Part shown: piece by piece, positions 17,180-21,744 of the stretch
Layout: every line of letters begins with the position of its first letter
Position numbering within the stretch: position 1 is the stretch's first letter
DNA from: a virus
DNA length: 32,639 nt
Virus record (IMG/VR): IMGVR_UViG_3300042520_000494
Location: 1-32,639 of that record
Strand: one strand, 5' to 3'
Translations under genes and position numbers: made by a program
Notes under the pieces: generated by a model
What the model saw: the letters and a program-made list of their open reading frames with translations, nothing else
Told to the model about the DNA's origin: nothing
Databases searched by the model: none

Positions 17180-18694
17180 TCAAAGGCTAAGCGTAAAGGA
17201 AGGGTCATCCCACGGCGATGACTGAGGTATGCCAGCATCGTGCGACTCCACGCCAAGCGCCATTGCAAGGGCAACCACGCCGTCGATCCGTCCAGATGAT
17301 TTCGCCTTGGTCAGCTTGCGGTCGCCCGCTGGGCTGCGCTCTGCCACCGCGTTTGCGGCGCACATGTTCATCACCGGGTTTGCGCCGTGCCTGATCTTGC
17401 GCTCGGCCACCAGCCGCTCCAGCTTGTCCACCGCCGGGGCCATGTCTTTAAAGCCCTGCCCAAACGGCTGCATCGGCAGGCTGACACCGATGGCGTCCAG
17501 TTCCCGCGTAAAGTCATTGATCCGCCAGCGGTCATAGGCCAACAGTTGCAGGTCGTATTGGTCAGCCGCGTCTGCCACCGCCTGCGCCACAATGGCCGGA
17601 ATGATGACCGGGCCATCGATCAGCGTGATGAAACCTTGCTCAGCCCAGACATCGTAAGGCACCTTGTCCTCTTTGGCCCTCTCACGGATGCCCTGCGCTG
17701 GCATGAAGAACTGAGGCACAACGTGGTAGATGCCGTCCTGCGGGAACACCATTACGAAGGCCGTCAAGTCTCTGCTGGCCGACAGGTCAAGCCCAGCATA
17801 GCACAGCGCGCCCGTCTCGACCTCTGGCTCCTCGGCGTTTGCCTCCCATTCACTGCGGTTTAGGAACGGGCTGGTCGCCTCAATGCGCTGATTTAGGAAC
17901 AGCCAGCGAAAGCTGTTCTCCTTGGCGGGCAGGCGGTCGGCCTGCTTGGCGAAATCCTCGATGTCGGTCAGGCTGCGAAACTCGCCCAAGGCTGGGTTTG
18001 CCGCCGCCCATGCGCTGCGATCCATCACCTCACAGTCTTCCGGCGCGGTGTAGACATGGCTTACGATCCGATTGTCCTTGGCGTTCTTGGCATCGTCCAG
18101 CCAGATGCTGAACAGGTCGCCGTCGGTCGCCGCTTGCGTGCTAATTGCGATCAGCAGTGGATCTTCATGCGCGCCCTGTGCGGTTTCGATGGCTTCGATA
18201 AAAGCATCGGTCGGCCCGCGCACCTGACCAACCTCGTCCAAGATCGCCAGCACAGGCGAAAGGCCGTGGGCCGTCCCAGCTTCCGCGCTGATGGCTTTGT
18301 ATTCCACGTTCATCGGCAGGCCGATCAGCGATTTCTGCGACGGCACGATCCGCACGATCTTGGAAAGTTCCGGCGAGAGCCTGACCATCTTTTCGGCCAG
18401 CTTGAAAACAAGGCTGGCTTGGTCGCGTGATCTAGCGCCGCTGACAATTTGGCTGTTCTGCCGCGCCTCTGGGCCGACGATATGAGCAAGAAGGATCGCG
18501 GCGATCAAGGCCGACTTGCCGTTTTTGCGCGCCACTGAAAGGTAGGCGCGGCTGGTGCCTTTCGGGTTGTCGTAGATGTCCAAGATGAACTTGCGCTGAA
18601 AAGCCATCAGCTTAAACCGCTTGCTGACCAGCTTGCCCTCTGGGATCATGCAATACCGCTCAATAAAAGCGCAAACTTTTTCACCACGTGTCAT
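17180..18694 (-). CDS. terL: Terminase large subunit
   Basis: A 504-residue DNA packaging motor. The ATPase domain carries Walker A (SVARKNGKS, residues 53-61) and Walker B (AILDEVG, D153/E154); the C-terminal nuclease domain starts near YAGLDLSASRDLTAFVM, whose aspartates match the RNase H-like metal site. The family resembles HK97/phiC31-type terminases. GGAG sits 6 nt before the ATG, and a near-consensus promoter lies about 25-50 nt upstream, making this the first gene of the late structural transcript. Unusually, the small subunit gene is not adjacent but 2.6 kb away. Confidence 0.95.
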   Translation of the reverse strand: MTRGEKVCAFIERYCMIPEGKLVSKRFKLMAFQRKFILDIYDNPKGTSRAYLSVARKNGKSALIAAILLAHIVGPEARQNSQIVSGARSRDQASLVFKLAEKMVRLSPELSKIVRIVPSQKSLIGLPMNVEYKAISAEAGTAHGLSPVLAILDEVGQVRGPTDAFIEAIETAQGAHEDPLLIAISTQAATDGDLFSIWLDDAKNAKDNRIVSHVYTAPEDCEVMDRSAWAAANPALGEFRSLTDIEDFAKQADRLPAKENSFRWLFLNQRIEATSPFLNRSEWEANAEEPEVETGALCYAGLDLSASRDLTAFVMVFPQDGIYHVVPQFFMPAQGIRERAKEDKVPYDVWAEQGFITLIDGPVIIPAIVAQAVADAADQYDLQLLAYDRWRINDFTRELDAIGVSLPMQPFGQGFKDMAPAVDKLERLVAERKIRHGANPVMNMCAANAVAERSPAGDRKLTKAKSSGRIDGVVALAMALGVESHDAGIPQSSPWDDPSFTLSL

Positions 18695-18712: not shown

Positions 18713-18741
18713 TTTACACTTTTATCATACTTTTATATTGT
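18713..18741 (+). promoter_or_regulatory. Plus-strand promoter for the 18767 gene
   Basis: TTTACA (18713-18718), 17 nt, TATTGT (18736-18741); an alternative -10 TATATT lies 15 nt away. The -35 hexamer is the one used by the other plus promoters here. It overlaps the late minus-strand promoter, so the two probably compete. Confidence 0.55.
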
Positions 18742-18752
18742 GTTCCTGTCAA
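18724..18752 (-). promoter_or_regulatory. Late operon promoter (TTGACA-N17-TATGAT)
   Basis: On the minus strand a perfect -35 hexamer TTGACA (18752-18747) is followed after 17 nt by TATGAT (18729-18724), five of six matches to the -10 consensus. Transcription would start near 18717 and reach the terL ATG at 18694 after about 23 nt. It interleaves with a plus-strand promoter on the same DNA. Confidence 0.78.
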
Positions 18753-18766
18753 CATGGGAGATCAAC

Positions 18767-18973
18767 ATGATACTTTGGGAACAGCACTGCCTAGAAAACG
18801 CAAAATACTTCACCGCAGTTCGCGGCAACAAGCCCTCGCTTCGCATCAAGAAAACATTCGACACCTTGGAGCAAGCCACGGAATACGCAAAAGCAAACTT
18901 TGGCGGTGACAAGCGGACCATGATTTACGCCGTCACCGACAATGGATCACACGCTCACATCTGCAACGCATAA
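18767..18973 (+). CDS. Small protein, unknown
   Basis: A 68-residue protein starting MILWEQHCLENAKYFTAVRG. It contains a helix (TLEQATEYAKANFGG) followed by strands (RTMIYAVTDNGSHAHIC), like small alpha/beta phage early proteins; no known family. I chose the ATG at 18767 because GGGAG lies about 6-7 nt upstream; the longer reading begins inside the promoter. It lies on the strand opposite the packaging genes and is followed 11 nt later by a second small gene. Confidence 0.75.
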   Translation: MILWEQHCLENAKYFTAVRGNKPSLRIKKTFDTLEQATEYAKANFGGDKRTMIYAVTDNGSHAHICNA

Positions 18974-18984
18974 GGGAAAATCAA

Positions 18985-19266
18985 ATGTCCGTAACACTCA
19001 AGACGCTCCAGCACAAAGTAGACTGCATCAACGAGATGACAGGCAACCCAAGTGAGCCTTACACAAGGACCGAAAGCGGTTTCGTGGCAAATATCGGGTG
19101 CTACTACATCTCACAAGCCTACGGCGGCGTTGCGTTGGTCCGCATGGTAACAGAGGGCGGCGGGCAAACCATGCCAACGCAGTCTGGTCACATCACGAAG
19201 CGTCAGTTGAACCATGAACTTGAGGGTTTTCTTGCCGCACTTCGAGCAATGCGGGCGCAAGCCTAG
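18985..19266 (+). CDS. Small conserved-type phage protein, unknown
   Basis: A 93-residue protein. The pattern TLKTLQHKVDCINEMTGNP, CYYISQAYGGVALVRM and TKRQLNHELEGFLAALRA matches a small phage family I recall (helix, strand with YGG, strand, terminal helix), which has no known function. AAGGGA lies about 7 nt before the ATG. Its last 74 nt overlap the convergent cytidylyltransferase gene, and a terminator follows 26 nt after its stop. Confidence 0.8.
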   Translation: MSVTLKTLQHKVDCINEMTGNPSEPYTRTESGFVANIGCYYISQAYGGVALVRMVTEGGGQTMPTQSGHITKRQLNHELEGFLAALRAMRAQA

Positions 19267-19642
19267 ACCTTAGCTCACTGGACGAAAATCTATGCAGACG
19301 CTTGTTAAAGTGCGTCTGCATTTTCAATTCATGCCCTGTGAACTGAGTCCCCCTGTATTCCTCGCCAATGATCCTAATGTTGACATGCCGCAGCAAGAGA
19401 ATGTCCATCAGATCGCGCTCTGTCTCATACGGGATGATCTCGTTGACGTATGAAACAGCTTTTAGCTGCGTGTAACGCTCGACAACCGATTGAATTGGCT
19501 TGTTTTTGGTTGCTCTTTGCTGAGATGGATCGACGTGCAGACCGCAAATCAGATAGTCGCAAACGGATTTTGCTTCTTCAAGCATGGCTACATGACCCGC
19601 ATGAAGCAAATCGAACGCAGAAGCAGTAAAGCCAACCTTCAT
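19193..19642 (-). CDS. Cytidylyltransferase-like nucleotidyltransferase
   Basis: A 149-residue enzyme of the HxGH superfamily. GFTASAFDLLHAGHVAMLEEA contains the signature HAGH (residues 14-17) that binds CTP or ATP phosphates, with NKPIQSVVERYTQLKAV and IRIIGEEYRGTQFTG following as in glycerol-3-phosphate cytidylyltransferase-like proteins of marine phages. It would couple a phosphorylated small molecule to a nucleotide (for example CDP-glycerol). The classical HRFSSSELR end is present, then about 20 extra residues that overlap the convergent gene. The start at 19642 overlaps the glycosyltransferase stop (ATGA). Substrate unknown. Confidence 0.88.
   Translation of the reverse strand: MKVGFTASAFDLLHAGHVAMLEEAKSVCDYLICGLHVDPSQQRATKNKPIQSVVERYTQLKAVSYVNEIIPYETERDLMDILLLRHVNIRIIGEEYRGTQFTGHELKMQTHFNKRLHRFSSSELRSRLAPALLEVRQENPQVHGSTDAS
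19292..19325 (+). terminator. Intrinsic terminator inside the cytidylyltransferase coding sequence
   Basis: ATGCAGACGC (19292-19301) pairs perfectly with GCGTCTGCAT (19312-19321) over 10 bp around a 10-nt loop and is followed by TTTTC, 26 nt after the stop of the 18985 gene. The same DNA codes the MQTHFNKRLH segment of the convergent enzyme. Confidence 0.8.
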
Positions 19643-20508
19643 TTCTTCTTTACATCCTCTGACATGATCATCGGAACAGCGTTTTTCCACCTTACCATGT
19701 GGTGCAATCTTCTGTTTTTGACCCCCATTTCCGTCACTTTTACGCAGGATGGGGCGTACATGACCGAATAAAAACTTTTGACGTATGTGCCAAGGTCCAA
19801 ATAAATGTCGGTCAAGCCGCCACTGCTTGCTTGGGTCTGGGTTTGCTCAAGTCTGATGCGCGGGGCAGTTATGAAGACGCCGCCTCTGTGACCAATGGCA
19901 ATGTATGCGTTTACGTCCTCATTGATGCGCCCCATGAACTTGAACGGCCGATCCGTTGACATGAAAAAAGCGTTCATGGCTTTTCGGCTGAACTTGCCTT
20001 GCCTGTGCAGCTTTGAGACGTTCGACCCGGGGCCGCCGATAAAATCACCACCTTGAGACATCGCCAAAGTCAGTGCGCCGCTGGCAATGTAGAACTCCAA
20101 CATCGCATCGATGACTTCGCCAAGCTTTTTGATGTTGATCTGCTTGGTGATGTACTCACGATCATTGTCAAACGTGTATCTGAACTGCCTATAATCGTCG
20201 TCAAGCTGCAAGAAATACTTGATGCCAAGCTGCTTTGCGACCTCGAAATTGTAGTTTCGAGCATAGACTACAGAATTCCTCTTGCCAAAATTGTCGCCGC
20301 TGTCGGTCGCGTCGATGGCCGCCTGCTTGTTGAACACGACAACTTGATCGCCAAAGCGTTTTTTGTATTCGGCGATCTGGCTGTCCTCATTATCAACCAT
20401 CAGATAGATTTTGCCCGCGTATCCTGCCTCCCTCAAGGTCGAGTATGTCAGGACATTGTCTGCCCTGCCGTGGGTCAGGATGAATACAGCAAAATCACTC
20501 CTCGTCAT
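19639..20508 (-). CDS. Glycosyltransferase, TET-associated (TAGT)-like
   Basis: A 289-residue GT-A-fold glycosyltransferase. The N-terminal FAVFILTHGRADNVLTYSTL, the middle GDNFGKRNSVVYARNYNF and the metal-binding QLDDDY motif (D103-D105) are followed by GGDFIGGPGSN, GRINEDVNAYI and GGLTDIYLDLGTYVKSFYSV. This is the pattern I associate with TET/JBP-associated glycosyltransferases of phage DNA hypermodification operons; the subfamily call is from memory. No TET/JBP oxygenase is visible here. The ATG at 20508 has GGAG about 9 nt upstream; ATG 20514 is possible. It overlaps the ParB-fold gene by 14 nt. Confidence 0.8.
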   Translation of the reverse strand: MTRSDFAVFILTHGRADNVLTYSTLREAGYAGKIYLMVDNEDSQIAEYKKRFGDQVVVFNKQAAIDATDSGDNFGKRNSVVYARNYNFEVAKQLGIKYFLQLDDDYRQFRYTFDNDREYITKQINIKKLGEVIDAMLEFYIASGALTLAMSQGGDFIGGPGSNVSKLHRQGKFSRKAMNAFFMSTDRPFKFMGRINEDVNAYIAIGHRGGVFITAPRIRLEQTQTQASSGGLTDIYLDLGTYVKSFYSVMYAPSCVKVTEMGVKNRRLHHMVRWKNAVPMIMSEDVKKK

Positions 20509-21265
20509 CTGCATACTCCGACAGATAAATCTCAGACAATTTGTCTGACATTTTGACGTAACCATTTTCGATTGCTTTTTCAAAGTCAATGATCACAAGT
20601 GCGCTATCTTCCATCAGGTCTTGGCATTCCTTTGAAGCGTGCGCGTAATAGTTCGCAATGACTTCAAAGTTGAAGACCGTGTGTCTGCCAGCAGCGAGGG
20701 TCAGGAACCTCTTTTCCTCATCAGACAAGCCGGACCCCTCAATCCCATACAGCAAGTCCCGCGTTTTCTCGTCGTTAAACATTTCTTCAAGTTGAGGCTT
20801 CGGGCCTGTTGGCTCATAAACGGGTGCTGAAACCTTCTTGGTGTATTCGTTGTCTTCGTCAGTGTCTGACTTTAGAAGGGCAACCAGTTCATCTTGGCTG
20901 AAACCCATCAGCGCACCGAAATCAGCGCCGAGGTCTTCCAATTCTATCCGCAGGGCATCTTCATCCCAGCCAGCGTTCAGAGCCAGCTTGTTGTCAGCGA
21001 TGATCAACGCACGACGCTTGCGATCATCAAGACCAGTGACCACGACAGCAGGCACTTCGGTCATTTTTAACTTGCGTGCCGCCATGACACGGCCATGCCC
21101 AGCAATCAGGTTGTTCTGCTCGTCGATCAGAACAGGATTGGTAAAGCCAAAGGCTCTGATCGATGCGGCGATCTGCGCCACCTGATCATCGCTATGCGTT
21201 CTGGTGTTCAGAGCATATGGGATCAAATCTTCGACAGACATGATCTTGTTTTCATAGAAATCCAT
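20495..21265 (-). CDS. ParB/Sulfiredoxin-fold nuclease-like protein
   Basis: A 256-residue protein. Residues 8-125 form a ParB-type domain: LIPYALNTRTHSDDQVAQ, ASIRAFGFTNPVLIDEQ, LIAGHGRVMAARKL (GHGR at 56-59), then RRALIIADNKLALNAGWDE. Elsewhere this domain precedes a DNA methylase; here the methylase is absent and residues 150-256 form a different helical domain (FLTLAAGRHTVFNFEVIANYY, ALVIIDFEKAIENGYVKM). ParB-fold domains bind NTPs and DNA or act as nucleases. It starts at the terS stop, with 1-nt sharing, and overlaps the glycosyltransferase gene, so the three genes form one unit with terS. Confidence 0.85.
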   Translation of the reverse strand: MDFYENKIMSVEDLIPYALNTRTHSDDQVAQIAASIRAFGFTNPVLIDEQNNLIAGHGRVMAARKLKMTEVPAVVVTGLDDRKRRALIIADNKLALNAGWDEDALRIELEDLGADFGALMGFSQDELVALLKSDTDEDNEYTKKVSAPVYEPTGPKPQLEEMFNDEKTRDLLYGIEGSGLSDEEKRFLTLAAGRHTVFNFEVIANYYAHASKECQDLMEDSALVIIDFEKAIENGYVKMSDKLSEIYLSEYADDEE

Positions 21266-21744
21266 CAGTTTCTCCGATCTGGCATTGCAATGAGATCATC
21301 CCCCGCGAGGTAATCAACCACTGTTCTGATGCCGTTTACGTTTTGACCAGCCGCATTGAGCGTGCGCGGGTCACTGGCCTGCTGATTTAGCGACATTGAA
21401 CGGATCACCGCAAGCTGCCTTCTTTCCAATGTGTCGATCACAGAGATCAACGGGTTTGGGATAAGCGTCTCCCGCTTGTTTTTGATCAGCACGCCAGAGC
21501 GATCCAGCGTCTCCTGATGCTTTCGGATATCGGCTTCCATACGGACCACCTTTGCCAAGAGCAAAAGATCCATATCCCGCCAGTCCTCGCGTGCGCGCGC
21601 GCGCGTGAACTGATCCCATATGATAACTTCATCGTCACTGCGAAGGTGGATGCCTTCTGGCAACGGCACGCTTTGAAGTGCGCCGCGAAAGCCATCAACC
21701 GCCGATGTCGTGCTATTGCTGTCTGGTCTGCTCTTCTGGCTCAT
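21265..21744 (-). CDS. Terminase small subunit candidate (P27-like)
   Basis: A 159-residue protein starting MSQKSRPDSNSTTSAVDGF. The helical region LLLLAKVVRMEADIRKHQE, then LIKNKRETLIPNPLISVID and LERRQLAVIRSMSLN match P27-type small terminase subunits, where NPxLSV plus a helix is typical. It would recognise viral DNA to start packaging. The start at 21744 has AGGGA about 7 nt upstream; a longer reading has a basic, non-conserved extension. The sequence includes a 20-bp alternating purine-pyrimidine tract coding TRARARE. It is separated from terL by the ParB cassette. Confidence 0.75.
   Translation of the reverse strand: MSQKSRPDSNSTTSAVDGFRGALQSVPLPEGIHLRSDDEVIIWDQFTRARAREDWRDMDLLLLAKVVRMEADIRKHQETLDRSGVLIKNKRETLIPNPLISVIDTLERRQLAVIRSMSLNQQASDPRTLNAAGQNVNGIRTVVDYLAGDDLIAMPDRRN
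21588..21607. repeat. 20-bp alternating purine-pyrimidine (CG-rich) tract in terS
   Basis: A perfectly alternating run of C/T and G from 21588 to 21607, mostly CG steps. Such tracts favour Z-DNA. It lies in the presumed small terminase gene, where several phages keep their packaging recognition site. The role here is not established. Confidence 0.6.

Follow-up and report, generated by a model that had tools for sequence, protein, structure and literature searches.

A TAGT glycosyltransferase cassette without TET/JBP at the terS-terL junction of a tailed phage: a candidate DNA-hypermodification system

Organization of the locus

The virus record IMGVR_UViG_3300042520_000494 (IMG/VR; 32,639 bases), the whole of which is called the window here, carries a cassette upstream of terL in which a TAGT-family glycosyltransferase (GT) is encoded together with a ParB-fold protein and an HxGH nucleotidyltransferase (NTase). 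The genes of TerS, the ParB protein, GT, and NTase are all on the minus strand and overlap successively by 1, 14, and 4 nt. An earlier note on this DNA had described these four overlapping genes with their GHGR, DDD, and HAGH motifs, and its coordinates, overlaps, and motifs were all exact.

TerS (159 aa; 21265-21744, minus strand, as are all genes below unless indicated) matches phrog_5601 (6.8e-18) and Pfam Terminase_4 (25.1 bits; cut-off 24.7), and its relatives share this junction with a ParB_N gene. The ParB protein (256 aa; 20495-21265; phrog_620, 4.5e-64), with the GHGR motif, consists of a ParB_N/sulfiredoxin-fold domain (residues 1-130; 20876-21265; Pfam ParB_N, 28.7 bits, cut-off 26.3) and an unnamed, predicted all-helical C-terminal domain (CTD; residues 138-256; 20495-20854). 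GT (289 aa; 19639-20508) matches PF20691 (2.3e-35; 122.8 bits, cut-off 27.5) and phrog_842 (3.1e-74). NTase (149 aa; 19193-19642) is cytidylyltransferase-like and belongs to the HxGH nucleotidyltransferase superfamily by its CTP_transf_like match (2.1e-13; 51.1 bits, cut-off 21) and its HAGH motif; it also matches phrog_7878 (1.7e-30).

The downstream border of the slot is TerL (17180-18694; TerL_nuclease, 143 bits; phrog_9, 3.2e-128). The position of the cassette between terS and terL, as previously proposed, is correct, but NTase does not abut terL: about 500 nt separate the two genes. This interval (18733-19192) has two plausible small plus-strand open reading frames (ORFs), 18740-18973 and 18985-19266, the latter of which overlaps the 3' end of NTase in the antisense direction. 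A minus-strand ORF at 18733-18921 matched no family in a Pfam search.

The GC content of the ParB, GT, and NTase genes is 48-49%, compared with 56% for the genome, which fits an acquired cassette. Another contig (L002) has the identical gene order, and its TerS, CTD, GT, and NTase are 94-98% identical to those of the window. The cassette is not a chance assembly, given this contig and the recurrence of the ParB-GT pair in viruses that are very distant.

The glycosyltransferase

The TAGT core of GT spans residues 6-228 and is followed by a conserved C-terminal extension (residues 229-289; consensus TQ..GG.TD.YLD.GTY.KSFYSVMY.PS...RLHH) that is missing from the phage T6 enzyme. The AlphaFold2 model (pLDDT 92.5; pTM 0.90) has a GT-A fold by Foldseek; this model and the PF20691 score bear out the TAGT-like assignment made earlier. 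Asp103-Asp105 (DDD) and Glu197-Asp198 are conserved, so that a DxD-type metal site is present. No membrane segment was found in GT, and no solved homolog was found by sequence. The Foldseek matches included SunS, glycogenin, collagen glycosyltransferases, and the wall-teichoic-acid enzymes TarS and TarP, at TM values of about 0.4-0.5. These matches were too general for the identity of the sugar to be read from them, and this line was dropped.

In the tree, all 24 sampled CTD-associated GTs formed one clade (support 100/98) apart from the T6, Aeh1, and TET-associated TAGTs, with long branches. In three contigs (L149-L151), one ParB-CTD gene is followed by two tandem TAGT genes, and the ED region is diverged in the second. 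It should also be mentioned that other TAGTs are found with another short domain, W..MP.F...TK.IW(F/W)P, in what looks like a parallel partner system. It is fused to ParB_N in L191 (173-2118), is fused to GT as an N-terminal extension in Aeh1 (L245), and stands alone in L216 (741-1037).

Pairing of the glycosyltransferase with the CTD

The earlier note placed its weight on ParB as a unit and overlooked the CTD. ParB was rejected as the constant partner of GT: the CTD is always there, whereas ParB_N is optional, being present in 39 of the 80 GT loci. In about half of the relatives, the CTD has a gene of its own (about 130 aa) beside GT. It matched no Pfam family and, by sequence profile, no solved structure in the Protein Data Bank (PDB), and a PDB structure search with the ParB-CTD model gave matches only to the ParB_N part. 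Among 55 sequences, Tyr141, Tyr150, Pro157, Phe187, Leu188, Arg194, Ala204, Tyr207, Leu223, Asp227, Ala231, and Gly235 are invariant. The ParB_N domain matched Noc, ParB, and Spo0J structures by profile, and Noc and ParB by Foldseek; it is probably the DNA-targeting part.

In viral contigs, GT was adjacent to the CTD in 77 of 78 CTD loci and the CTD was present in 76 of 80 GT loci, counts that do not represent independent events, here or in the sets below, because the sets overlap and pattern searches favour close relatives. The remaining CTD contig ends just after the CTD, and the other four GT loci are cut by contig ends. In 50,697 phage records, the CTD was found in 30, all of them within the 42 records with GT. 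Twelve GT records lack the CTD: T4-like Aeromonas phages, in which the family is a distant one of T6 type, a single Vibrio phage, and lactobacillus copies that have decayed. Of the 35 GT loci on bacterial contigs, 34 had the CTD, and in the 35th it was frameshifted. Over 31 loci, sequence identity of GT was correlated with that of the CTD (r=0.49) more strongly than with that of the terminase (r=0.29).

The CTD-GT pair is broadly distributed, occurring in haloarchaeal, actinobacterial, Firmicutes, Bacteroidota, and proteobacterial viruses. The named hosts are Haloarcula, Nocardia, Lactobacillus, Escherichia, Vibrio, and Porphyromonas, and the phyla bearing it in prophages are likewise broad. 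A plasmid search with GT gave no match. Elsewhere, the pair is found upstream of terS, and one phage of 191 kb has it beside a helicase gene, off the terminase. In nine loci, CTD and GT are separated by a SAM-methyltransferase-like gene (for example, L037:7238-8005 and L144:6332-7216). GT has decayed in the Lactobacillus phages LL-Ku, Ld17, and Ld25A; all that is left of it in Ld25A is its C-terminal ~45 residues, inside a gene annotated as ParB nuclease.

Occupants of the terS-terL slot in relatives

Relatives were fetched with the TerS and TerL of the window, and 91 distinct terS-terL intervals were compared. Thirty-three were empty and 58 were filled. ParB_N with an N6/N4 DNA methyltransferase (MTase), mostly as a single fused gene, occupied 40 of the filled slots, and the CTD-TAGT pair, with or without NTase, occupied five. 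The others held ParB_N, MTase, and Mom (two), MTase (two), ParB_N and Mom (one), ParB_N, TAGT, and TET/JBP (one, L386), or other genes (seven). This means that 46 of the 53 filled slots without the CTD-TAGT cassette hold recognised DNA-modification genes. In Pfam searches, representative occupants all scored above the cut-off: PF01555, PF25680 (Mom; 1.6e-51), TAGT (45.6 bits), and Tet_JBP (40.7 bits).

In L386 (688-2824), ParB_N, TAGT, and TET/JBP lie between terS and terL, and the start of ParB_N overlaps the stop of TerS, as in the window. This compact cassette is possibly a three-gene DNA-hypermodification unit. A Mom-family gene directly follows the ParB_N gene in the terS-terL interval of L365, L392, and L326 (524-1901), in two of these contigs behind a ParB_N-MTase fusion.

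Among sister phages whose TerS and TerL are the same, the cassette is missing or replaced. The main reason to regard the CTD-TAGT pair as a DNA modifier is that such phages have filled one junction variously with three established kinds of DNA modifier and with CTD-TAGT. The role in DNA modification suggested by the earlier note therefore has strong, though indirect, backing from the MTase, Mom, or TAGT with TET/JBP found in this slot. Its further suggestion, coupling to packaging choice, found no support and was rejected: as described above, the pair also occurs upstream of terS or off the terminase, and the other occupants are ordinary modification genes.

Enzymes that would make the acceptor

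In T-even systems hydroxymethyl-dCMP is made first, and in TET/JBP systems the base is oxidised first. The CTD-GT records searched yielded no TET/JBP, while L386, the positive control, was matched; nor does the window record contain a TET/JBP gene, as reported previously. The window thus resembles the TET/JBP-TAGT operon of L386 in its neighbouring ParB_N and TAGT genes between terS and terL, and lacks the TET/JBP gene. Among 47 records, thymidylate-synthase-type enzymes (PF00303) were matched in just two, the T6 control and Vibrio phage pv27 (191 kb). Nearly all relatives thus have no recognisable enzyme of either type. C5-methylases were found in about three CTD-GT records. Both the T6-type glucosyl-hydroxymethylcytosine route and the TET-type route were therefore rejected.

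No acceptor-making enzyme is annotated in Lactobacillus phage c5 (complete, 31.8 kb) or in Escherichia phage 666R9, and a Pfam search of their hypothetical proteins gave none among the 25 families listed out of 31. In phage c5, neither a DNA polymerase nor a nucleotide-metabolism gene is annotated; therefore, its modification, if any, would be post-replicative. Since no acceptor enzyme was recognised, the acceptor might be a canonical base, a host product, or the product of CTD/ParB or of an unrecognised gene.

The nucleotidyltransferase

Among solved structures, NTase is nearest to ethanolamine-phosphate cytidylyltransferase (ECT) and glycerol-3-phosphate cytidylyltransferase (GCT). NTase shares with GCT, ECT, and HldE-type enzymes the cytidylyltransferase fold, the HxGH motif, and a YVNE-type motif; however, its scores are far below the equivalog cut-offs (GCT, 52.2 vs 165.4 bits; HldE adenylyltransferase, 61.4 vs 181.5 bits). 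It was rejected as a core part of the system, as it is found in only 10 of the 80 GT loci and is common without the cassette.

NTase follows GT in the window and its kin and in a Firmicutes contig (L433), lies between CTD and GT in L152 and L147, and follows a distant TAGT beside ParB_N in L191. It stands beside TAGT in contigs of the L226 type, which also carry TET/JBP. Altogether, TAGT is beside NTase in 15 of 79 NTase loci, and TAGT with TET in four contigs. In L147 (6329-7288), NTase is fused to a histidine-phosphatase domain. NTase also occurs in nucleotide-sugar clusters with epimerase, phosphomannomutase, and UDP-sugar dehydrogenase genes, and the Vibrio phages with CTD-GT have an unlinked NTase of 60% identity. 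Because NTase has joined TAGTs repeatedly and has such neighbours, activation of a donor is the most economical role. Judged from these sequence relationships, NTase likely makes an NDP- or CDP-activated donor, in agreement with the nucleotide-activated group of the earlier note.

Proposed mechanism and alternatives

The cassette of the window is rather likely to be a phage DNA-hypermodification cassette, a TAGT-based variant without TET. As the pairing is obligate, GT and the helical CTD probably act as one complex, which would attach a sugar-like group to the DNA of the virus, most likely in a post-replicative step. The ParB_N domain, which here is joined to the CTD, would serve as the DNA-engaging adaptor; the same slot supplies ParB_N to methyltransferase, Mom, and TET-TAGT modifiers. 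NTase would make the nucleotide-activated donor for phages in hosts without a suitable one, and the modified DNA would be protected against host nucleases.

Several points weigh against this interpretation. GT shares the Pfam family (PF20691), the GT-A fold, and the ED motif with the T6 beta-glucosyl-HMC-alpha-glucosyltransferase (HMC, hydroxymethylcytosine), but the identity is 17%, and the stem of the CTD-GT clade is very long. No acceptor-forming enzyme is recognised, so the T6 or TET route cannot be transferred to CTD-GT. The company kept in the slot is guilt by association, and in seven of the 58 filled slots no modification gene was recognised. The cassette is not essential, because some lactobacillus phages carry decayed copies. 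To our knowledge, no chemistry is known for any CTD-GT phage.

A bolder form of DNA modification, which we hold only tentatively, is that CTD-GT is a self-sufficient two-protein glycosylation module spread over archaeal and bacterial viruses. It would need no prior hydroxylation of the base: the CTD would make or present the acceptor, for example by base flipping, and the sugar would be placed directly onto a canonical base. This would resemble Mom, which puts its group on adenine directly.

Glycosylation of a protein is unlikely. Here GT, in the manner of glycogenin or SunS, would modify its ParB/CTD partner at the invariant tyrosines, a virion protein, or a host protein. The Foldseek matches to SunS, glycogenin, and collagen glycosyltransferases, the small obligate partner with invariant Tyr141, Tyr150, and Tyr207, and the lack of an acceptor-making DNA enzyme all agree with it. 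However, the slot otherwise holds DNA-modifying enzymes, including the TAGT and TET pair, and the characterised TAGT relative acts on DNA (PMC13216743).

In another, quite improbable alternative, GT would glycosylate a surface polysaccharide or the envelope, to bring about serotype conversion or to exclude superinfection, and the cytidylyltransferase would supply precursors resembling CDP-glycerol or ADP-heptose. NTase does resemble GCT, ECT, and HldE enzymes, and TarS and TarP are among the nearest GT-A structures. GT, however, is soluble and without a membrane helix, no flippase genes were seen in the window, the obligate partner of GT is often fused to ParB_N, and the same cassette is shared by haloarchaeal, Gram-positive, and Gram-negative viruses, which differ in their envelopes.

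Regulation of partition or packaging, in which ParB would work with TerS or as a partition/CTPase factor and the sugar genes would either be passengers or moderate the packaging choice, fits the adjoining terS and terL and the likeness of the ParB_N fold to CTP-binding ParB/Noc but is very improbable: no ParA family was recognised among the window ORFs scanned, ParB scored 30 bits against the cut-off of 58.45 of the full-length partition family TIGR00180, half of the CTD-GT loci have no ParB_N, sister phages lack or replace the cassette, and the pair is far from the terminase in the giant phage.

Relation to known systems

The DNA-hypermodification reading places the cassette beside several known systems. 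The T6 enzyme that belongs to the TAGT family places a second glucose on DNA that is already glucosylated (PMC13216743, PMC13390438). Solitary TAGT homologs, without alpha- or beta-GT, were reported in 288 of 753 GT-bearing phages and termed potentially novel transferases (PMC13216743). They are like CTD-GT in this respect, but the partner domain, the pairing, and the slot are not described in the passages of that paper that were consulted. The family, the T6 activity, and the solitary TAGTs were thus known before.

T6 makes hydroxymethyl-dCMP, has an alpha-GT, and has no CTD beside its gene, whereas the CTD-GT phages have no recognisable dCMP hydroxymethylase. The TET/JBP-TAGT operons (L386) share with the window the terS-terL junction, a ParB_N gene, and a TAGT enzyme. 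The CTD-GT phages differ in having no TET/JBP, a TAGT of another clade with its own C-terminal extension, an obligate CTD, and, in the window, an added NTase. The ParB_N-MTase fusions (phrog_498) and Mom (PF25680) have the same location and ParB_N module; they transfer a methyl or Mom group, whereas the window enzyme would transfer a glycosyl group.

The CTD-TAGT pair had no earlier description in the literature searched, which did not cover the 2013 survey introducing TAGT. Against that literature, the obligate pairing, the ParB_N slot common to MTase, Mom, and TET-TAGT, the occurrence without acceptor enzymes, and the wide presence in E. coli prophages are apparently new.

If DNA is the substrate, many "solitary" TAGTs would be part of one coherent system of DNA modification in which their partner is defined, and the cassette may be a new means of disguising viral DNA. 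The self-sufficient form would be a route to sugar-modified DNA other than the T-even and TET/J-base routes. Laboratory strains would allow tests of the acceptor of a DNA glycosyltransferase without a hydroxylated base and of the role of phage ParB_N tied to DNA-modifying enzymes. New DNA-acting glycosyltransferases would be useful tools, and the modification would be a candidate counter-defence against restriction.

E. coli prophages and flanking genes

In Rac-type prophages, the CTD-GT pair lies between trkG and terS; full-length ynaK and GT are found, for example, in Escherichia phage vB_EcoS-666R9 (ON470614: 20903-22619). Among complete E. coli genomes, 1,572 of 5,426 had some match to the 1,717-nt pair, and in 885 (~16%) at least 80% of it was covered. 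In the Rac prophage of K-12 MG1655 (L242), ynaK (b1365) keeps the ParB_N end, and the CTD and GT are gone; by this sequence comparison, K-12 ynaK is a ParB_N stub, a deletion remnant of the CTD-GT module. This K-12 gene would thus be explained as a truncated end of the module. In strain AR_0015 (L243), the intact full-length ynaK is flagged as partial/pseudogene by PGAP, apparently because the K-12 stub serves as reference, and this hides the system. Copies of ynaK in other strains (L406 and L407) are frameshifted or truncated, and GT is annotated in other strains as "GREB1-related protein".

The window otherwise has the gene set of an HK97-type tailed phage, with portal, S78 protease, capsid, and tail genes and genes for a DUF3987 primase-like protein, an AAA ATPase, YqaJ, and a helicase.

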